From Thermincola carboxydiphila (GTDB lineage Bacteria > Bacillota > Thermincolia > Thermincolales > UBA2595), in the NCBI GenBank assembly GCA_016841325.1, contig JAENZJ010000012.1, positions 1 to 64,000 on the forward strand: a DNA stretch of 64,000 nucleotides. Direction: 5' to 3'. The notes below the pieces were generated by a model. The model saw only the letters and a program-made list of their open reading frames with translations. It had not been told where the DNA came from and did not search any database. This document shows, piece after piece, positions 3,669-17,804 of the stretch. Numbering within the stretch: the stretch's first letter is position 1; the number at the start of each line of letters is the position of its first letter. Position numbers and translations under genes: made by a program.

Positions 3669-4586
3669 CTAACCGGCCAACTCTTCCTTAAGATTAAGGA
3701 CCCTGGGTCTAAACCCTACACTCTCCAGCAGGTCTGAATATTCCTCAGGCAGCATTGAATCAGGATTCCGGCCTGACAATGCAATCAACACTCCCTCCAT
3801 AACATTGGTCCCAAAGGACCTGCCATTGAGCTCAGGAGTTGTTGTAATTAGCTGCCTGATTCCCCTTTCTTTCAACAATTGTATGTCTCTTTGGGTTACA
3901 GTATTCGTAATAATACATTTACCGGACAAATTTTCGGGCATATACCTCCTGATAAAATGAAAATCCCCCGCTATAATGTCAGCCCGCTCATAGTAGCTAC
4001 TATACCTGGGAGTCTGATAGTCCTGTTTGCCACCCGTCGGATAAAGTATTTTAAAAGGAAGTTTTACAATAATCGGTGCAATTATTCTGGCTATCCTTTC
4101 CAATGATGTAATTGAGGTAATGCTAACAGGGAGTCCCAGGGCGAATATCAGGTCACCAAAGGTCATATCGGCTCCGGCTTCCGCAAGGCTTTCAGCCATA
4201 CCAAACCTGTCCACCGCACAGACCATTAATACCTTTTTGTTTGCGAATACCATTCCCAATTCGTTTTGTAAATATGCAATTACTTTTCGCTCCAGAGTGT
4301 TTTTCAAACCACTGCCATCGACGACCGGAGATTTCTTTGCCGCCCGGGCAATTCTTTTGGCATCCCTGAAAGTATACCGCCTGGCGCCGGCATAGATATA
4401 CAGGTCAATTCCACCAAGCCCAAAAGCATCCACCTGTCCATCATATTTTTTGATAAGTTCAATGGCTTTTTCAATATCTCCGTCAGTCCCTATTCGTTCA
4501 ATAAGGATCCTCTGTCCCAGTATCTCTGTTTCCACCGTATGGTCACGGACTGAAGACCCCAAACTGACACTCATAACCCGTTTCAA
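3669..4586 (-). CDS. 'Quinate 5-dehydrogenase' family protein, function uncertain
   Basis: A 305-residue protein of a family usually named quinate 5-dehydrogenase in clostridial genomes; I know of no biochemical proof for that name. Visible features are DAFGLGGIDLYIY, a conserved block (SPVVDGSG), and a central segment KKVLMVCAVDRFGMAESLAEAG resembling a Rossmann turn but without a classic GxGxxG. The start is TTG at 4586, 8 bases after AGGAGG; an in-frame ATG lies 4 codons later. It stands between a probable regulator and an AAR-like protein, suggesting one pathway or one sensing function. No signal peptide or membrane segment. Confidence 0.6.
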   Translation of the reverse strand: MKRVMSVSLGSSVRDHTVETEILGQRILIERIGTDGDIEKAIELIKKYDGQVDAFGLGGIDLYIYAGARRYTFRDAKRIARAAKKSPVVDGSGLKNTLERKVIAYLQNELGMVFANKKVLMVCAVDRFGMAESLAEAGADMTFGDLIFALGLPVSITSITSLERIARIIAPIIVKLPFKILYPTGGKQDYQTPRYSSYYERADIIAGDFHFIRRYMPENLSGKCIITNTVTQRDIQLLKERGIRQLITTTPELNGRSFGTNVMEGVLIALSGRNPDSMLPEEYSDLLESVGFRPRVLNLKEELAG

Positions 4587-4641
4587 AACAACGTCCTCCT
4601 TTAAAAACAACCTTTTGACCGATTGCTTTATAGCTATTACT

Positions 4642-5193
4642 TTACTCTTTTGCCATACTCCCATTAGGTTTTTTCTTGACGGCCTGTAAAATTTTCAGTA
4701 ATTCTTCGGTGGGCACATACTTGTCTTCTTTTATTGGGGACTCCCCGATTTCTATACCCACCACTTCCTGGTCGAGAATTGCTTCGATTGTCCTGATCCG
4801 CCGGTTTGAGCCAATAACCACCACTACATCAAAGGACCGGGCTTCAGCAATCAAATCAAGGATTTTATTCAAAAGGCCAATCCCATCATCTTTTTTAACA
4901 AAGTCCCAGCGTTCATTTTCAGTCATGATTAAGGTGAATTCAATACCTTCCCTGTGCAATAAGTCCATTATCTCACCCTTATTCTTAACAGGAAATCCGA
5001 TAACGGCTATCCGGTTGCCTTTGCGCACCTCTCCCAGGGCTTCCAGCCTGGATATAAAGGTACGGTCAATCCCCAATCGGTCGGCAACTTTTTGCTGGGC
5101 AATTCCCGAACTTCGCATCTCCAGTATCAGGTCAATGGCTTTGGATATCTTCCTGCGGCTTAGAATTTTACCGCCGATTCTCAGCAGATCCAT
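4642..5193 (-). CDS. Helix-turn-helix regulator with Rossmann-like C-terminal domain
   Basis: 183 residues. An N-terminal Xre/KorB-like helix-turn-helix (about 27-56, with QQKVADRLGIDRTFISRLE) is followed by a domain with alternating strands and helices (IAVIGFPVKN, FDVVVVIGSNRRI) that could sense a small molecule. The ATG at 5193 has AAGGAG upstream; the longer reading frame to 5226 lacks a good site. First gene of the set with the two genes downstream. A promoter and an inverted repeat lie just upstream, so autoregulation is plausible. The ligand is unknown. Confidence 0.7.
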   Translation of the reverse strand: MDLLRIGGKILSRRKISKAIDLILEMRSSGIAQQKVADRLGIDRTFISRLEALGEVRKGNRIAVIGFPVKNKGEIMDLLHREGIEFTLIMTENERWDFVKKDDGIGLLNKILDLIAEARSFDVVVVIGSNRRIRTIEAILDQEVVGIEIGESPIKEDKYVPTEELLKILQAVKKKPNGSMAKE

Positions 5194-8050: not shown

Positions 8051-8108
8051 AAAAGTCTGGCCATCTTTCCTTGTTTAGCCGAGTCTTATATGGCTCAGAG
8101 GACTTTTT
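8051..8108 (+). promoter_or_regulatory. Structured leader with terminator-like hairpin
   Basis: AAAAGT (8051-8056) pairs with ACTTTT (8102-8107). Inside, CTG/CAG and GCC/GGC pair with small bulges, closing a large loop that contains a further GAGTC/GGCTC hairpin. The 3' arm ends in ACTTTTT, as in an attenuator. It matches no riboswitch class I recognise. Confidence 0.4.
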
Positions 8109-8164
8109 CCAAAAAATGTTACAGAAGCTTTTTCACAAGCTATTTACAGGCAGGGGGAAAGAAT

Positions 8165-9526
8165 ATGAAATCATATGCTGAGTTAGCGCGACATGACGGT
8201 AATGAAACCTTATTTGAGGTTGTTGAAATGGGGATTATTTCGATGCTCTGGAATATCCCTCTCCATATCCATGCGGAAGGACTAAGGGGCACCGGAAAGA
8301 CAACAATCATGAGGGCTGCACACCAGATCATGCCTCCTATTGTCCGTATTAAGAACTGCCTGTACAACTGCGACCCCGAGGCCCCACATTGCCCCAACCA
8401 TAGGCACCTGTCAGCGGAGGAAATCTCAGCCTTGGGGGCCGAAACCGTACCCCGCCCGTTTCTTGAGATTTCACATTCAGCGAAAATAGGTACCATTGCG
8501 GGAAGTATTGACCTGCAGAAGATAACCAATTCTTCAAATCCCGAAGCTGCACTGTTGCCGGGAATTATCCCCCAGGCACACAGAGGAATTATTTTTATAG
8601 ATGAAATCAACCGCCTGGCTGATACTTCACCTGAAATAACCGATATCCTGCTTGATGCCATGGGAACTAAACCGGGCCGGGTCCAAATTGAAGAAACAGG
8701 ACTGCCACTGGTTGAGCTCCCTGTGCAGGTTTCAGTATGGGCCGCCTCAAACCCCGATGAAGAACCGGGCCCCCTTCAGGAAATCAGGCGCCAGCTGTCT
8801 GACAGGTTTGACCTGGTTGTAGAAATGGGACGGACCACCAGTCCTGATGCCATTGCAGATATCCTGATTCAGAGTGAGCTCAGGAGGCTGGGTAAAAAAG
8901 AAGTCCTGCAAAAGGGTATTGATAATTCTGCCCGGCTCCGCAAAGAACTGGAGACCCTGGCCAAAAAGTTCGAGTCACTGACTATGCCGGACTTTTTACG
9001 AAACTACATAGCCCGGCTCTATGTCAAGTATAATCTTGAAAGTTTTCGGGCCATTGAAGCCATCCAGCACACTGCTCTGCTGCACTGTGCCCTAAGGGGG
9101 CGGCAGCAGCCTCTGGTAAGTGATATTCTTAAGGTAATCCCCCTGGCTCTGAGACATCGTGTCGAAACTGAAACCCTGACCAAGATTATGAACTCTTCAG
9201 ACTCAAAACCGAGTACAAATGACAATACTCCTTCACCAAGTCTTGGTTCACAACAAAAAAAAAAGAAACCAGAGACTTTTTCTTCCGAGTATGAACCGGC
9301 GGTCAATGATGGCATAATGAATGATAACTCCGATTACGACAGTGCCGGTAAAGAAGGAAAATCGATTTTTCAGCCCCTCAAACAGTTATTCTCCGGCAAA
9401 CAAAGCAAGGCTGAAACCGGGGAATCCGATAATGACCCAATTAAAGCATCTCCGCTGAATAAGGCCAAAAGGCTGCCTGATCTGAATCTTGACGAACTTG
9501 TAAAATCAGAGGGTGATTTTAAATAA
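8165..9526 (+). CDS. AAA+ ATPase, BchI/MoxR type
   Basis: 453 residues. The AAA+ core has Walker A GLRGTGKTT (39-47), Walker B GIIFIDE (141-147), sensor-1 Asn196 (AASNPDEE) and a likely arginine-finger segment RRQLSDRF (208-215). Between Walker A and B is a Cys/His cluster: C65, C69, C76, H79, H81. It resembles the chelatase-I branch but no bchH/cobN-type gene is present. Residues about 340-435 are low-complexity, charged and probably disordered. The ATG at 8165 follows GGGGGAAAG; a longer frame from 8090 lacks such a site. First gene of an operon with three VWA proteins; AAA+/VWA pairs normally form ring-plus-adaptor complexes that remodel a target protein. The target here is unknown. Confidence 0.88.
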   Translation: MKSYAELARHDGNETLFEVVEMGIISMLWNIPLHIHAEGLRGTGKTTIMRAAHQIMPPIVRIKNCLYNCDPEAPHCPNHRHLSAEEISALGAETVPRPFLEISHSAKIGTIAGSIDLQKITNSSNPEAALLPGIIPQAHRGIIFIDEINRLADTSPEITDILLDAMGTKPGRVQIEETGLPLVELPVQVSVWAASNPDEEPGPLQEIRRQLSDRFDLVVEMGRTTSPDAIADILIQSELRRLGKKEVLQKGIDNSARLRKELETLAKKFESLTMPDFLRNYIARLYVKYNLESFRAIEAIQHTALLHCALRGRQQPLVSDILKVIPLALRHRVETETLTKIMNSSDSKPSTNDNTPSPSLGSQQKKKKPETFSSEYEPAVNDGIMNDNSDYDSAGKEGKSIFQPLKQLFSGKQSKAETGESDNDPIKASPLNKAKRLPDLNLDELVKSEGDFK

Positions 9527-9533
9527 CCAAACC

Positions 9534-9554
9534 GGGCCGGGATTATCCCGGCCC
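9534..9554 (+). terminator. Strong hairpin between the AAA+ and first VWA gene
   Basis: GGGCCGGGA-TTA-TCCCGGCCC is a perfect 9-bp stem. The T tract (ATCTTTTTT) starts about 8 bases later, so it may give only partial termination or act as an mRNA processing or stability element. That could set the ratio of ATPase to VWA proteins. Confidence 0.5.
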
Positions 9555-9666
9555 CTGTTGTATCTTTTTTCATGCCAATATGGGAAAACACAAAGAGTCC
9601 AGGGCTTAAAAACCAGAACATAGTGGAAGATTTTTCTTTTTTAATGCCTGAAGGGAGGGTCAGTTT

Positions 9667-11424
9667 ATGGATAGTTCAGAAAGACACCAGAGAATGACTC
9701 TGGAAAATTACCTCGGTGCATATTTCCAAAAAAATCAGGGTGTCAGGCTGGGTGAAACAACTGTGATCAGCCATAAGGTACACGGCAATGACCCCAAGGC
9801 TCCCGGTGAGATCCGCATTTATACCGACACAGATGCAGGACGGTATTATTTGAAGAACCCTGAAGAAAACATGGTCCTTCACATGGATGTATTCCATGAG
9901 CCGGCCTGTCTGGACCCGGTTTACGTAGCCAGGCGGGTCTGGCAGGGTATTGATAAATACTTTGTCCAACTCCGTAACGAAAACCGCTCCCTCTTTACGC
10001 AGGAGAAAATCAAAGAACTGTCGAAAATGATGGTACAGAATATTGTTATTAGGACCTCCGGCGGGTCGGGGACTGTTTGGGAACTGGCCAACCATAAAGG
10101 CCGACTGGAGCACGATAAAGCCGGAAAACCTGAAACTCATGTCCACCTCCTGTTTTCGGTTGCTCCCAAATATTATGACAGCATTATATTTATCGCCGAT
10201 GCCGTAGAACAGGCAATACTCAAACACGGCTTCGAAATCAGGCGAGTCGAAAAGATAATCCACTGTGAAAAAGACTCTGACCCCGGTCCGGGCTTTGGAA
10301 TAGGGTTTGGCCTGCCGGGTTTTAATATACCCGAAGCGCTTCAGCACCGCCGCCACCAGAACCGTCTCCAGATTATCATGAACCTGGCGAGCGCTTTCGG
10401 GAGTATTGAGGATGCTGCCAGGTTCCTTGAATCCCTTACCACAACAGGCAATATCTTTCTGGGGTCATTTGCCAAAAAGCATACTGACGGCGGGTTGAAA
10501 CAGACCCTTTTGGACCTTTCAAATGCCAACATTGTGCAAAAGAAAAAGTTCGCCTTTGTCCTCACTGAAGAGGGTCAGACACTAAAGAATTTCATCAGGG
10601 GCCATCAAAAGGAACTTGAGGCCCAGGTCAGGAAGTCTATCCGCCGTTACCAGATAGTCCGCCACGATTACCGGACATACCGAAATTCTGATTTGAAATC
10701 ACGCAAGAGTCACCTGACTGACCATAAAAAGGTGCTTAATTCGGCCAACAATGCATGGATCACTGATATTGCTATCCCGGAAACTGTTGTCAGTGCATCT
10801 GCGCGAAGTTTTCTTGAAGGCAGTCCGCGAATGACAGTTACTAAAAAGGATTTCAAAGTATTTGGCAAAAAATCATTTGCCCCTATTGACACCTGTATCT
10901 CCATTGATTGCAGCGGAAGCATGGTCGGGGAAAAAATCAAGGCGGTCTCTTACCTGGCCGAACACTTCCTACTCACCTCCAAAGAAAAGGTCGGGGTGCT
11001 TTCTTTTCAGGAAATGGATGCCCGGGTTGTTGTCCCCTTCACCAAGAGCTACCAGAAGCTTCAGGACGGCCTGCGGTCAATTCATCCCGAAGGACTCACT
11101 CCACTTGCCAAAGGAATTGCTGAAAGCATTAAACTGATTAAAATGAAACGGGCCCGTAATCCCCTGTTGGTACTTATTACGGACGGGATTCCCAACTTCC
11201 CGCTGTGGACTATGGATGCTCAGGATGATGCCCTCAGGGCAGCCAAAATGATTGCCGAGAACCGGATCAGGTTTGTCTGTATCGGGGTAATTCCCAACGA
11301 AACATTTATGAAACAATTAGCTGCAGCAGGGAGAGGAAATCTTTATATTGTTGACGAACTCAATAAAAACAGCCTATTGGATGTTCTCACCAGGGAATGG
11401 GAACAATACAAATACCGTAAATAA
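9667..11424 (+). CDS. VWA-domain protein, tandem copy 1
   Basis: 585 residues. The C-terminal von Willebrand A domain (about 395-580) keeps a complete MIDAS metal site: DCSGS (414-418), T478 in GLTPLAKG and D506 in ITDG. The N-terminal 230 residues form an unrecognised alpha/beta region (LHMDVFHEPA, TSGGSG, ETHVHLLFS, HGFEIRRVEKI). Residues about 235-335 look like a winged-helix-like segment (SNANIVQKKKFAFVLTEEG) leading to a basic helix (VRKSIRR). ATG preceded by GGGAGGG. Closely similar over its whole length to the next two genes. ChlD/CbbO/NorD-type VWA proteins partner with AAA+ rings, so this is probably the adaptor of the upstream ATPase. No membrane segment. Confidence 0.85.
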   Translation: MDSSERHQRMTLENYLGAYFQKNQGVRLGETTVISHKVHGNDPKAPGEIRIYTDTDAGRYYLKNPEENMVLHMDVFHEPACLDPVYVARRVWQGIDKYFVQLRNENRSLFTQEKIKELSKMMVQNIVIRTSGGSGTVWELANHKGRLEHDKAGKPETHVHLLFSVAPKYYDSIIFIADAVEQAILKHGFEIRRVEKIIHCEKDSDPGPGFGIGFGLPGFNIPEALQHRRHQNRLQIIMNLASAFGSIEDAARFLESLTTTGNIFLGSFAKKHTDGGLKQTLLDLSNANIVQKKKFAFVLTEEGQTLKNFIRGHQKELEAQVRKSIRRYQIVRHDYRTYRNSDLKSRKSHLTDHKKVLNSANNAWITDIAIPETVVSASARSFLEGSPRMTVTKKDFKVFGKKSFAPIDTCISIDCSGSMVGEKIKAVSYLAEHFLLTSKEKVGVLSFQEMDARVVVPFTKSYQKLQDGLRSIHPEGLTPLAKGIAESIKLIKMKRARNPLLVLITDGIPNFPLWTMDAQDDALRAAKMIAENRIRFVCIGVIPNETFMKQLAAAGRGNLYIVDELNKNSLLDVLTREWEQYKYRK

Positions 11425-11471
11425 AAATAATTACTTACTACTGTACTCCCCTGCAAAGGAGGGCATAAACC

Positions 11472-13223
11472 TTGGAAAGTTCCGAAAGGCACAAGCGGCT
11501 GACCCTGGAAAACTACCTCTCAGCATATTTCAGGGAAAACCAGGGTGTACGCCTGGGAGAAACCACTGTTCTCAGCCAGAACGTTCACGGAAATGACCCT
11601 AAAACTCCGGGGAAAATTATGATATATACAGACCAGGATGCCGGGAAATTCTACCTGGAAAACCAGGAAGATGACCTGACACTGCACATGGATGTGTTTC
11701 ACGAACCTGCCTCCCTGGACCCCATCTATGTTGCCCGGAGGATATGGCAGGGTGTGGAAAGCTATTTTACCCAGCTAAAAGAACACGAAAACAGGCTGGC
11801 TTATTCTGATGATAAGATAAAGGATTTGACAAGGGAGTTTGTCAAGAGCATCACCCTGAGGACCTCCGGAGGTAAAGGAACTGTGTTTGCCCTGGCCAAG
11901 CGGGAAGTGCAGCTGGTTCCCGAAAAAACCCGAAAACCCGAAACACACGTTCATCTCCTATTCTCTGTAAACCCGGAACACTATGACAGTGTGTTATTTA
12001 TTGCCGATGCCGTAGAACAGGCAATTATGAACCAGGGCTTTGAAATCAGGCGCGTGGAAAAAATCGTGCACTGTGAAAAAGAAATCCAATACAAACCAGG
12101 AATCGGTATAGGTTTCGGACTGCCCGGGTTTAAGTCGCAGGAAGCCCAGGAATACCGGGCTCACCAAAACAGGCTGCAGATAATTATGAATCTGGCAGGT
12201 GCCTTTGGAAGTATCGAAGATGCCTCGCGTTTTCTGGAGTCACTCACCACTGCAGGAAACGTGTTTCTTGGCTCCTTTGCCAAGAAACACACTGATGGTG
12301 ACCTGAAACAGACTCTGCTGGACCTTTCCAACGCAAATATTGTAAAAAAGACCCGGTTTGCTTTTGTCCTTACTGACGAAGGCAAGGCACTGAAGGATTT
12401 TATCAGTCAGCACCAGAAGGAACTGGAAGCCCAGGTGCGCAAATCCATCCGCAGGCATCAAATCGTCAGGCATAATTACCGGACCTTCAAAAATACTGAT
12501 TTGAAGTCTAAAAAAAGCCGGCTTACCGACCATAAAAAAACATCAGAATGGCGGGACCACAGTGATATTGCCATTCCGGAAACGGTGGTCAGGGCTGCTG
12601 CCCGGAGCTTTCTGGAAGGCCAGCCCCGCATCTCCATAAAGAAAAATGATTTCAAGGTCTATGGCAAAAAATCCTTTGCCCCCATTGACACCTGCCTGGC
12701 CATTGACTGCAGTGGCAGTATGGTAGGTGAAAAAATCAGGGCAGTTTCCTATCTGGCGGAACATTTCCTCCTCACTTCCAAGGAAAAAGTCAGTGTCATT
12801 GCCTTTCAGGAGATGAATGCCCGAATTGTGGTCCCATTTACAAAAAACTACCAGAAGCTCCAGGACGGCCTGCGGACTATTCAGCCCGAAGGCCTGACTC
12901 CCCTTGCCAAAGGAATCATGGAGAGTATTGACCATATTAAGGCCAAAAGAGCGCGCAACCCTCTGCTTATCCTGATAACAGACGGTATTCCCAACTTTCC
13001 GTTGTGGACAACTGACGCCCAAAAGGACGCCCTGAAGGCTGCCGAAATGATAGCAGAAAACAAGATCAGGTTTGTCTGCATAGGTGTTATTCCAAATGAG
13101 GAGTTTATGAAAAACCTTGCTGCCAAGGGACGGGGCAACCTCTATGTTGTGGATGAGCTTGACAAAAACAGCCTTGTGGATGTGGTTACCCGGGAATGGG
13201 AACAATATAAATACAGCAAATAG
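11472..13223 (+). CDS. VWA-domain protein, tandem copy 2
   Basis: 583 residues, collinear with copies 1 and 3. The MIDAS residues are intact (IDCSGSM, GLTPLAKG, ITDGIPN). The N-terminal region again has HMDVFHEPA and HGFEIRR-like blocks (here QGFEIRR). Start is TTG, 8 bases after AAGGAGGG, and the resulting N-terminus MESSERHKR matches copy 1 (MDSSERHQR), so the start is well supported. It is 47 bases after copy 1 with its own strong ribosome site. The spacer after the winged-helix-like part differs most between copies (TSEWRDHSDIAIPE here), which might set partner choice. Confidence 0.85.
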   Translation: MESSERHKRLTLENYLSAYFRENQGVRLGETTVLSQNVHGNDPKTPGKIMIYTDQDAGKFYLENQEDDLTLHMDVFHEPASLDPIYVARRIWQGVESYFTQLKEHENRLAYSDDKIKDLTREFVKSITLRTSGGKGTVFALAKREVQLVPEKTRKPETHVHLLFSVNPEHYDSVLFIADAVEQAIMNQGFEIRRVEKIVHCEKEIQYKPGIGIGFGLPGFKSQEAQEYRAHQNRLQIIMNLAGAFGSIEDASRFLESLTTAGNVFLGSFAKKHTDGDLKQTLLDLSNANIVKKTRFAFVLTDEGKALKDFISQHQKELEAQVRKSIRRHQIVRHNYRTFKNTDLKSKKSRLTDHKKTSEWRDHSDIAIPETVVRAAARSFLEGQPRISIKKNDFKVYGKKSFAPIDTCLAIDCSGSMVGEKIRAVSYLAEHFLLTSKEKVSVIAFQEMNARIVVPFTKNYQKLQDGLRTIQPEGLTPLAKGIMESIDHIKAKRARNPLLILITDGIPNFPLWTTDAQKDALKAAEMIAENKIRFVCIGVIPNEEFMKNLAAKGRGNLYVVDELDKNSLVDVVTREWEQYKYSK

Positions 13224-13258
13224 ATCATTTTCCGGTGCTCAAAAGGAGGAAGGGACCC

Positions 13259-15004
13259 TTGGAACGCTCCGAGAGACATCAGCGAATGACCCTGGAACAC
13301 TACCTGACGGCATATTTCAAGCAGAATCAGGGGGTGCGCCTGGGGGAAACCACGGTAATCAGTCATAAAGTGCATGGCAATGACCCCGGAAATCCCGGGG
13401 AGATACATATTTATTCCGATCAGGATGCCGGCAGGCATTATCTGAAAAATTCGTCAGATAACCTGGTGCTCCATATGGATGTTTTCCATGAACCGGCCAT
13501 GCTTAACCCGGTACATATTGCCCGCCGGGTATGGCAGGGACTGGAAACTTACCTCACCAAACTTTTTGAAGAAGAGTCAGAAGACTTGACCAGGGATGAA
13601 ATTACCAACCTGACCAAAAAGCTGACCCAAAACATTATTTTAAGAACATCTGCGGGTTCCGGAAATGTTTTTGAACTGTCAAGCCTAAAAGTAAAACTTA
13701 TCCCGGAAAAACAACAAAAGCCCCAGACCCATGTCCATCTTTTAATATCTATGGAGTCAAGTCATTATGACTCTATTTTATTTATTGCTGACGGAGTCGA
13801 ACAGGCAATACTCAACCAGGGGTTCGAAATCAGGCGTGTGGAAAAAATCGTACACCGCAGGAAGGATATTGAAATAGAATCCGCCGGCGGTATCGGCCTG
13901 GGCCTGCCTGGCTTCAGTTCAGCAGAGGCAGAAAAGTACCGGGCGCACCAGAACCGGCTGCAAATGATCATGAACCTGGCAAGTGCTTTCGGAAGTATAG
14001 AAGATGCCGGCAGGTTTCTGGATACACTTTCTGCAGCCGGAAACATTTTTTTGGGCACCTTTGCCAGGAAACACGGTGACGGTGACCTGAAACAAACCCT
14101 TCTGGACCTTACCAATGCGGGCATGGTCAAAAAAACTGCCTTTGCCTTTGTCCTCACAGAAGCAGGCAAAGGAATGCGGGACTTTATCAGGGAACATCAG
14201 AAGGAACTTGAAGCCCAAGTCCGGAAATCTATCCGCAGACACCAGATAGTGAGGCACAATTACCGTACTTATAGGAATTCGGAACTTAAATCCCGCAAAA
14301 GCCACCTGACAGACCACAAAAAGGTATCCCCGTGGTCAGGGCACAGTGATATTGCAATTCCGGAAACGGTAGTTGCGGCCTCGGCACGCAGTTTTTTGGA
14401 GGGCCAGCCCCGGATGACTGTTAAAAAAAAGGACCTCCGGGTTTTCGGGAAAAAATCCTTTGCTCCTATTGACACCTGTATTGCCATTGACTGCAGTGGC
14501 AGTATGGTCGGTGAGAAGATTAGGGCGGTTTCTTACCTGGCCGAACACTTTCTCCTGACTTCCAAAGAAAAAGTAAGTGTGGTCTCTTTTCAGGAGATGG
14601 AAGCCAGAATAGTTGTCCCCTTTACTAAGAACTATCAGAAACTCCAGGAAGGGCTGCGCATGATCCAGCCCCAGGGACTGACGCCCCTGGCCAAGGGTAT
14701 TGTCACCAGTATTGAACTGATGAAACAAAAAAGGGCCCGCAATCCCCTGCTGGTCCTGATTACAGACGGCATCCCCAACTTCCCGCTATGGACCACCGAT
14801 GCCCAAAAAGATGCCCTGACGGCTGCAAAGCTCATCTCAGAAAACAAAATACGGCTGGTCTGTATCGGTGTTATTCCCAACGAGGATTTTATGCAGGAAC
14901 TGGCATCCATAGGTCAGGGTAATCTCTACATTGTTGATGAACTTGACAAGAATAGCCTTGTTGACGTGGTTACCCGGGAATGGGAACAATATAAGTACAG
15001 TTGA
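13259..15004 (+). CDS. VWA-domain protein, tandem copy 3
   Basis: 581 residues. A longer frame opens at 13235, but TTG at 13259 lies 9 bases after an AGGAGG run and gives MERSERHQRMTLEHYL, matching copies 1 and 2. The MIDAS site is complete (IDCSGSM, GLTPLAKG, ITDGIPN). Residues 201-216 differ from the other copies (RKDIEIESAGGIGLGL). The gene lies 35 bases after copy 2 and 97 bases before the aminotransferase-reductase fusion. Keeping three intact copies argues for distinct roles or a hetero-oligomeric ring rather than drift after duplication. Confidence 0.85.
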   Translation: MERSERHQRMTLEHYLTAYFKQNQGVRLGETTVISHKVHGNDPGNPGEIHIYSDQDAGRHYLKNSSDNLVLHMDVFHEPAMLNPVHIARRVWQGLETYLTKLFEEESEDLTRDEITNLTKKLTQNIILRTSAGSGNVFELSSLKVKLIPEKQQKPQTHVHLLISMESSHYDSILFIADGVEQAILNQGFEIRRVEKIVHRRKDIEIESAGGIGLGLPGFSSAEAEKYRAHQNRLQMIMNLASAFGSIEDAGRFLDTLSAAGNIFLGTFARKHGDGDLKQTLLDLTNAGMVKKTAFAFVLTEAGKGMRDFIREHQKELEAQVRKSIRRHQIVRHNYRTYRNSELKSRKSHLTDHKKVSPWSGHSDIAIPETVVAASARSFLEGQPRMTVKKKDLRVFGKKSFAPIDTCIAIDCSGSMVGEKIRAVSYLAEHFLLTSKEKVSVVSFQEMEARIVVPFTKNYQKLQEGLRMIQPQGLTPLAKGIVTSIELMKQKRARNPLLVLITDGIPNFPLWTTDAQKDALTAAKLISENKIRLVCIGVIPNEDFMQELASIGQGNLYIVDELDKNSLVDVVTREWEQYKYS

Positions 15005-15101: not shown

Positions 15102-17804
15102 TTGAGTATGGAATGGCTAAACCCGTCAACAGACAAATTACTGAAAAGTTTTAGGCTGGAAATGGAATATGTGAAAGGTGAGGGGCTATACCTGTATGAC
15201 CGGGAGGGTAACTCATACCTGGACTTCATTTCACAGTACGGGGCTGTCCCCTTTGGGTACAATCCTCCGGAAATAGCCGCTGTGGTACAGGATTTTATGA
15301 ATTCAGGCCTGCCCGCAATGGTTCAGCCATCGGTGCCGATAAAGGCCGCAGAACTTGCCGAAAAGCTGCTTAGACTGGCTCCCGGTGAAATGTCCCAGGC
15401 CACCTTCTGTCAAAGTGGCGCCGAAGCAGTGGAAACTGCCATTAAACTGGCCCGCTCCACAACGGGAAAACAAATAATCCTGTCCACAAAAAACAGCTTT
15501 CACGGTAAAACCATGGGGGCTTTGTCGGCTACGGGGAGGCCTGTTTACCAGGAACCCTTTTTTGCACCTGTAGCCGGATTTGAGACTATCCCCTTTAACG
15601 ATATCGATGCCCTGGAAACCAAGCTGAAAAGTCAGGGAAATGAAATTGCTGCCTTTATTGTTGAACCCATCCAGGGTGAGGGTGGTATCATCATTCCCTC
15701 AGAAGGTTACCTCAAACGCGCCGAGCTTATCTGCCGCAGTTACGGTGTCCTGTTGATTGTTGATGAGGTCCAGACAGGTCTGGGCAGGACCGGCAGTCTT
15801 TTTGCCTGTGAAAGGGAAGGAGTTAACCCTGATATACTGTTACTGTCCAAGGCCCTTGGAGGTGGTCTGGTTCCCCTGGGTGTCTGCCTGAGTTCAAGAC
15901 ATGCCTGGAACGACAGATTTGGCAAACTGCATAGTTCTACCTTTGCCAATAATAACTTCACCTGCTCTGTTGGGCTTGCAGTCATAGACAGGCTGACGGC
16001 AAACGGCCGGTCTCTGGTCAAGTCTGCTGCCACTATGGGTTCATATCTCCTGGACTGCCTCCGCAGGATAGACTCCAGGTTTCCCGGTGTCATCAGGGAA
16101 ATTCGGGGACAGGGACTGATGGCCGGGGTGGAATTCAACGGCTTTGACGGCTCTGAATCTTTTAGCATGCGGTATTTAGCCCGGCAAAGCGGTTTTTCCG
16201 CATTGCTTGCAGGGTATCTGCTGCACATTCATAAGATACGGTGTGCCCCGTTCCTGAACAATTCCATGACTCTCAGGCTGCAGCCATCCCTAACTGTCAG
16301 CAGAGAACAGATCGGACAGGCTCTGGATGCTCTGGAAAATGTCGTGGAAATACTTTATTACCAGGATTACAGTGAGTTATATAGTTACCTTTTAGACCGG
16401 AAAGTTCACGGCAAGATTACTGATTTCAGAACATACCGGAAACCCGTCAGGGGTTCGGCCCTGCTCCCGGGAGAAAAGCCCACTGAAAAATTTGCTTTTC
16501 TCATTCATTATCCGGCAGTGGAGGATATTGTTAAAAACAACCCATCCTTTATCAAACTTAACGAGACCGAGCAGGAAAAACTGCTGGACTGGGAAGCATC
16601 CCTGGATGCTGCGCCGGATGTTATTGTACACCTCCCAGCCTTTAAGTCCAAAGCTGGCAAAATTGCCGAAGGATGGTTAATTGGCATTCCGTACAGCGGA
16701 AAACACCTCGTTAATATGCCCAGGAAAAAAGCGGTATCAGTTTTGACTGAAGCCATTGACCTGGCCAAAGATATGGGTGCGAAAATTGTAGGCCTGGGTG
16801 CCTATACATCTATTGTCAGCCGCGGCGGCGCCGACCTCCAGGGAAAAGGGGTGGCAATTACCTCAGGCAACAGTTTCACTGTGGCCACAGCTTTTGATGC
16901 TTTGATGAAGGGCGCCTCCATGATGGACATTAAACCCGAAAAGGCTACCGGAGCCGTAATCGGGGCCACAGGTGCCATTGGAAGAGTGTGTGCCATTATG
17001 CTGGCCCGGGAAGTTGGCCAACTCTACCTGGTGGGAAACCCGGGCAAAGAGAAAACCAGCCTGCGCAGGCTGGAAAAACTGGCTGATGAAATATATGGAC
17101 ATATATTAACAGATTTGGTCAATGACAATACTTCACTCGACCACCAGAGGGGAATTGCCAAATGGTTGAAGGGTTTTGTCACCTGGCTTAATAATTCTGA
17201 CCCCCGCCAGGCCGAAAAACTCACAAGTGCAGTCGCAGTCAGGGAGGGAACACCTTTTTCACTGTCCCAATTTATCAACAACAACCTGGCACGGTCCGGC
17301 AAATTCAGCACCCCTCCGCTTAAGATTACCGTAAATATCCGGCAGGCGCTGCTGCAGTCAGACCTGGTGATCACGGCATCAAACTCGACATCTGACCTGA
17401 TTATGCCGGAACACCTGAAACAGGGCTGTGTCATATGCGATGTTGCCCGCCCGGCAGACGTCTCCCGGTCTGTACTCAGCAGCCGCAAAGATGTCTTGGT
17501 AATTGAAGGCGGCCTGGTAAAGTATCCTGATAAAATCTGCTTTGGGCAGAATATCGGCTATGCCCCGGGAATGAACCTGGCCTGCCTGTCGGAAACGATG
17601 CTCCTGGCCCTGGAAGGGGATTACCGTGACTTCAGTATCGGGCTGAAACTGCCGGTGGAGGATATTTATTATCTTAAGGGCCTGGCGCGGAAGCATGGCT
17701 TCGAACTTGCCATGCCGCAAAATACAGAGGGTGCCATAACCCCGGAAATAGCAGAAGCAGCCCGGAAAAATGCACGCTGTATTGATGTCCGGAAAAAGGC
17801 CTAA
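15102..17804 (+). CDS. Fusion: class III aminotransferase + acyl-ACP-reductase-like domain
   Basis: 900 residues. Residues about 1-420 are a class III PLP aminotransferase (acetylornithine/GABA type): QSGAEAVETA, VDEVQTGLGRTG (220-231), PLP Lys250 in LSKALGGG. After a linker (about 420-460) comes an AAR-like domain (463-875): FAFLIHYP, GLGAYTS (564-570), TSGNSFT (588-594), the Rossmann motif GATGAIG (621-627), IEGGLVKYP and Cys828 in NLACLSETML, which aligns with the acyl-enzyme Cys of cyanobacterial AAR. An insertion of about 60 residues (650-745) separates Rossmann motif and Cys. TTG start 11 bases after GAAGGG; ATG at 15108 is an alternative. A logical combined reaction is acyl thioester to aldehyde to primary amine (inference). 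Its TAA overlaps the stop of bioY on the other strand. Confidence 0.85.
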   Translation: MSMEWLNPSTDKLLKSFRLEMEYVKGEGLYLYDREGNSYLDFISQYGAVPFGYNPPEIAAVVQDFMNSGLPAMVQPSVPIKAAELAEKLLRLAPGEMSQATFCQSGAEAVETAIKLARSTTGKQIILSTKNSFHGKTMGALSATGRPVYQEPFFAPVAGFETIPFNDIDALETKLKSQGNEIAAFIVEPIQGEGGIIIPSEGYLKRAELICRSYGVLLIVDEVQTGLGRTGSLFACEREGVNPDILLLSKALGGGLVPLGVCLSSRHAWNDRFGKLHSSTFANNNFTCSVGLAVIDRLTANGRSLVKSAATMGSYLLDCLRRIDSRFPGVIREIRGQGLMAGVEFNGFDGSESFSMRYLARQSGFSALLAGYLLHIHKIRCAPFLNNSMTLRLQPSLTVSREQIGQALDALENVVEILYYQDYSELYSYLLDRKVHGKITDFRTYRKPVRGSALLPGEKPTEKFAFLIHYPAVEDIVKNNPSFIKLNETEQEKLLDWEASLDAAPDVIVHLPAFKSKAGKIAEGWLIGIPYSGKHLVNMPRKKAVSVLTEAIDLAKDMGAKIVGLGAYTSIVSRGGADLQGKGVAITSGNSFTVATAFDALMKGASMMDIKPEKATGAVIGATGAIGRVCAIMLAREVGQLYLVGNPGKEKTSLRRLEKLADEIYGHILTDLVNDNTSLDHQRGIAKWLKGFVTWLNNSDPRQAEKLTSAVAVREGTPFSLSQFINNNLARSGKFSTPPLKITVNIRQALLQSDLVITASNSTSDLIMPEHLKQGCVICDVARPADVSRSVLSSRKDVLVIEGGLVKYPDKICFGQNIGYAPGMNLACLSETMLLALEGDYRDFSIGLKLPVEDIYYLKGLARKHGFELAMPQNTEGAITPEIAEAARKNARCIDVRKKA

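Follow-up and report, generated by a model that had tools for sequence, protein, structure and literature searches.

A transaminase-acyl-ACP reductase fusion protein of the TamH/TfFusion kind in Thermincola carboxydiphila and its probable conversion of acyl thioesters to amines

Within the 64,000-nucleotide stretch of Thermincola carboxydiphila DNA analysed here (the window), a single long reading frame raises the question of what a transaminase joined in one chain to a reductase would make, and from which substrate. The earlier note on this DNA proposed that the two halves act in sequence, acyl thioester to aldehyde to amine. Sequence, fold and the invariance of the catalytic residues all support that assignment, and we put at roughly 85% the probability that the protein is a bifunctional reductase-transaminase of the TamH/TfFusion kind. 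The gene is present in single copy in the genome and contains no internal stops; an RBS-like GAAGGGA lies about 10 bases 5' of the TTG start, and an alternative ATG at 15108 would give 898 residues, with the stop ending at 17804 (table 1). The PLP lysine (within LLLSKALGG), the nucleotide-binding loop (the sole GxxGxxG of the protein) and the presumed acyl-enzyme cysteine (within NLACLSET) all stand in an intact frame exactly where the earlier note had placed them, and its alignment with the acyl-ACP reductase (AAR) cysteine is likewise confirmed: in a phmmer alignment Cys828 falls on Cys294 of the Synechococcus enzyme, the residue replaced by Ser in the mutant chain 6jzz (C294S).

Table 1. 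Features of the fusion gene in window coordinates, with residue numbers counted from the TTG start.
Feature	Position	Strand	Remarks
Whole fusion gene	15102..17804	+	single ORF, 900 aa, TTG start
Class III PLP transaminase domain, YgjG/PigE-like	15102..16376	+	residues 1-425; Pfam PF00202, fold match
Lys250 codon, PLP Schiff-base lysine	15849..15851	+	invariant 29/29
Linker	16377..16481	+	residues ~426-460; 51% family conservation
AAR fold domain	16482..17717	+	residues ~461-872; fold match to 6jzy
GATGAIG nucleotide-binding loop	16962..16982	+	residues 621-627
Helical insertion, variable	17040..17321	+	residues ~647-740; absent from cyanobacterial AAR and PigE
Cys828 codon, presumed acyl-enzyme cysteine	17583..17585	+	invariant 29/29; aligned with AAR Cys294

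The identity of the N-terminal half is straightforward, with a match to Pfam Aminotran_3 (PF00202) at E=4.8e-90. The AAR domain (residues 461-872) has no Pfam model, so that Pfam annotation shows a transaminase only and hides the fusion. The NCBIfam PigE model matches stretches in both halves (E=1.9e-170), yet at 569 bits against the 850 required for the PigE equivalog NF053554, and with the domain order reversed. Similarly, the C-terminal half matches the NCBIfam AAR model TIGR04058 weakly, with 76 bits where the cut-off is 450, and is thus a relative of the cyanobacterial AAR equivalog but no member of it. A profile of the family's C-terminal halves recovered the crystal chains of PigE (6e-52) and Synechococcus AAR (E=1.1e-31). 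An AlphaFold2 model of the full-length protein, built on 29 family sequences, reached a mean pLDDT of 90.5 and a pTM of 0.87; its N-terminal half is best matched by the PigE transaminase (4ppm; Z 49.4 over 414 residues, 39% identity), with YgjG also matched. Since the transaminase half fills the fold-search list of the full-length model, where only transaminases were found among the matches listed, the C-terminal half was folded separately (pLDDT 90.8). Its closest matches are AAR 6jzy (Z 36.3, 3.0 Å over 325 of 342 residues, 25% identity) and the carmabin-pathway TAD domain (Z about 32), on which a literature search returned nothing explanatory; the next dehydrogenases drop to Z 13.8 or less. 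In the predicted model, the C-terminal half adopts the AAR fold rather than a mere Rossmann domain. As in the TamH/TfFusion kind, a class III transaminase precedes an AAR domain in one chain, with both the PLP lysine and the acyl-enzyme cysteine retained.

Under this assignment, Cys828 of the AAR domain would accept the acyl group of a thioester carrier, and NAD(P)H bound at GATGAIG would reduce it there and release an aldehyde; the N-terminal class III domain, with PLP on Lys250, would then aminate the aldehyde to a primary amine, probably at the expense of L-glutamate. By inference, the reductase half is active and the product a fatty amine. The proposal is chemically sound, but as a rediscovery, correct though it is, it cannot claim novelty: natural transaminase-AAR fusions for which such a reaction is proposed are already known, one of them from the same genus. 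Prout et al. (2024, PMC10829540) cloned TfFusion (Tfer_2018) of Thermincola ferriacetica along with three other natural fusions and proposed the route from acyl-ACP to amine, assaying the transaminase half only, which uses L-glutamate as donor, is active to 70 °C and works when the fusion is expressed alone in E. coli. The same reaction has been demonstrated for TamH: Richardson et al. (2022, PMC9594044) obtained the complete conversion with acyl-TamA, NADH and L-Glu, and carried acid through acyl-ACP to amine in vitro. In a T. ferriacetica MAG we found an ortholog 85-86% identical to the present protein, whose cysteine is residue 826 counted from TTG and 824 from ATG, in agreement with the AAR cysteine mapped to C824 of TfFusion (PMC10829540); judging from these sequences, the ortholog is presumably TfFusion itself. 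Against our preferred reading, reductase activity has so far been reported for no thermophilic fusion, and alcohol dehydrogenase tests on the C-terminal halves of such fusions were negative (PMC10829540); PigE, when purified, failed to turn over its thioester (PMC8341465), TamH rejects acyl-CoA (PMC9594044), and the gene neighbours name neither substrate nor product.

Lys250, Cys828 and the glycines G621, G624 and G627 are invariant in 29 family members (34-86% identity), and equivalents of the lysine and cysteine recur in four more fusions from the class of an Alcanivoracaceae genome. Against same-genus orthologs the two halves are equally conserved (85% and 87-94%), which argues that the reductase half is under selection. 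The insertion, on the other hand, behaves differently. The earlier note rightly saw an extra segment in the reductase half, although its estimate of about 60 residues was low: alignment to AAR gives some 70-80 extra residues, predicted to be helical, the two aligned blocks being separated by about 100 residues in the query and about 20 in AAR. Its further suggestion of a channel or interface is not borne out, as the segment is less conserved than any other part of the reductase (mean 33%, against 64-68% for the flanking core and the transaminase) and its length varies among transaminase-first fusions, from 77 to 121 residues for positions 640-757. On these alignments the insertion is a family feature under weak sequence constraint; such poor conservation lends no support to a conserved channel, and the segment may serve as an interface. 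Direct transfer of the aldehyde between the two halves, as the earlier note had it, is not supported either. TamH deprived of an amino donor yielded detectable free C12 aldehyde (PMC9594044), so that in one member of this kind a block at the second step lets the aldehyde out.

Which thioester would be consumed? In the genome (99% complete), PF00550 carriers and PF00109 ketosynthases number one each, and the two genes share the fabH-fabK-fabD-fabG-acpP-fabF-rnc locus. The donor is thus probably ordinary acyl-ACP (or acyl-CoA), drawn from housekeeping rather than from a dedicated pathway; should the enzyme depend on an ACP, only that of fatty acid synthase is available. No carrier protein, ligase or ketosynthase occurs among the neighbouring ORFs read, and the 12 AMP-binding matches of the genome all lie outside the 64-kb window. 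Upstream on the same strand come three VWA paralogs in tandem (9667-15004) and, before them, a ChlI-like AAA protein (8090-9526); downstream, bioY is convergent with a 4-base overlap, followed by birA/nadCBA/panBCD housekeeping genes. A prodiginine-type cluster was suggested for the relatives from antiSMASH (PMC10829540). In T. carboxydiphila we found no dedicated prodiginine or tambjamine alkaloid cluster: there are no carrier, ketosynthase or MBC genes among the adjacent ORFs read, and genome-wide the only ACP and ketosynthase are those of fatty acid synthesis, which argues against that suggestion at least in this genome. One could go further and propose that in anaerobic Bacillota the fusion belongs to primary metabolism, using housekeeping acyl-ACP to supply a long-chain amine for an undescribed lipid or signal and no antibiotic alkaloid; we regard this extension as doubtful.

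Elsewhere, fusions sit in what look like product clusters. In Brevibacillus and Anoxybacillus (L010, 1556-10125; L011, 7989-16550) the fusion is accompanied by an R2-like diiron protein, a DUF3419/BtaA-like protein, a Glu dehydrogenase, an MFS protein and a histone-deacetylase-like hydrolase, in what looks like an uncharacterised amine-product cluster. In an Alcanivoracaceae MAG (L012, 5993-13976) a flavin halogenase-like protein, the fusion, a hydrolase, an AurF-type N-oxygenase and a fatty acyl-AMP ligase occur together, which suggests an N-oxidised fatty amine. In G433, the fusion adjoins PigC/RedH-like proteins. These settings fit the acyl-to-amine reading.

In Bacillota, family membership was scored at E<=1e-110, and a fusion was called where an open frame of at least 860 residues matched through the Rossmann loop. 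By these measures 61 of 398 sampled genomes match, some 50 of them with fusions and the rest with standalone transaminases or uncertain cases. In the class of the Alcanivoracaceae genome 8 of 369 match, about 5 with fusions. Among the genomes sampled, Bacillota (about 50/398) thus carry the fusion far more often than do relatives of the Alcanivoracaceae genome (about 5/369). On the transaminase tree the transaminase-first fusions group together, apart from sampled standalone transaminases (94/86), a topology compatible with one origin of this domain order; several long branches leave the joins between phyla unsure. A split arrangement, with a separate AAR beside the standalone transaminases, was ruled out in the six Bacillota loci examined.

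Among other readings, the one that survives best is that the reductase half acts on another thioester, such as an amino-acyl or short-chain CoA, the product being a diamine, an amino alcohol precursor or a polyamine. By type, the transaminase half belongs with the putrescine aminotransferases (YgjG), PigE and YgjG being its nearest matches; standalone transaminases with 44-46% identity occur in other Bacillota with no AAR neighbour; and TfFusion takes a range of short and aromatic aldehydes as well as 6-aminohexanoic acid (PMC10829540). However, the fold and cysteine of the C-terminal half best match long-chain AAR, and TamH prefers C12 (PMC9594044), so we hold this alternative to be unlikely. 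Far less probable is an inactive reductase half, kept to support the transaminase structurally or to regulate it. Without its C-terminal half, TfFusion had half the kcat and a weaker affinity for aldehyde, with no reductase substrate present (PMC10829540), so that this half does have a structural effect, and a Cys-less AAR-like paralog encoded in the same genome (2540-3655) illustrates that degenerate AAR domains do occur; yet 29 relatives show little or no variation at Cys828, in the glycine loop or in the domain core. That paralog (371 aa, minus strand) adjoins a conserved 331-aa protein (3669-4664, minus strand) between greA and dus. At the acyl-enzyme position it has Trp here, Gly in L037 and Cys in L038, so that this AAR paralog seems to be degenerating or to have been repurposed.

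Least probable of all is that the fusion forms one system with its upstream neighbours, for example as the target of a machine that inserts a metal or cofactor. Of 20 sampled genomes having both, 12 do place AAA, the fusion and one to three VWA genes inside 10 kb, in at least two different arrangements, but the second has five or more unrelated genes between or around them, G065, G042 and G152 carry AAA-VWA genes with no fusion nearby, G002 has a fusion without any VWA match, many genomes hold one without the other, and neither known half of the fusion requires a metal centre. The neighbours themselves (8090-15004, plus strand) comprise the ChlI-like AAA gene and three ChlD-like VWA paralogs of 583-589 aa, about 75% mutually identical, with no chelatase H subunit beside them; two copies occur in L038, one in G065, and a relative in 87 of 398 sampled Bacillota. 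Adjacency to the fusion is kept in the genus and in one more genus of the family, and the distance is 7-9 kb in several more distant genomes. The evidence for a functional tie is weak and the tie itself unproven.

Returning to the bifunctional reductase-transaminase, a one-protein route from acyl thioester to amine is useful in biocatalysis, a thermophilic one more so, as already pointed out for TfFusion. If the reading is true, the fatty amine would derive from ordinary acyl-ACP and be unexpected as a lipid building block, because the genome has no secondary-metabolite carrier.

Compared with known systems, cyanobacterial AAR (6JZY) shares fold, cysteine and NADPH loop with the C-terminal half, but it is a standalone enzyme without the insertion and hands its aldehyde to ADO. 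PigE of prodigiosin biosynthesis (PDB 4PPM) has the same two domains and is the nearest solved transaminase structure, yet in reversed order and without the helical insertion. Its conversion of acyl group to amine was shown in lysate, and channelling had already been proposed for it by analogy with GluTR-GSAM (Couturier et al. 2021, PMC8341465). PP_2782/KecF of Pseudomonas (koreenceines) has the same order and proposed reaction (PMC10829540) but lies within a type II FAS/PKS cluster. PtTamH of Pseudoalteromonas tunicata (tambjamine YP1) likewise has an N-terminal transaminase, a C-terminal AAR and the catalytic Lys and Cys (PMC9594044); it differs in that its gene lies in a biosynthetic cluster that includes an ACP, TamA, whereas T. 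carboxydiphila has no such cluster and a single ACP in its genome. TfFusion matches the T. carboxydiphila protein in genus, domain order and length.
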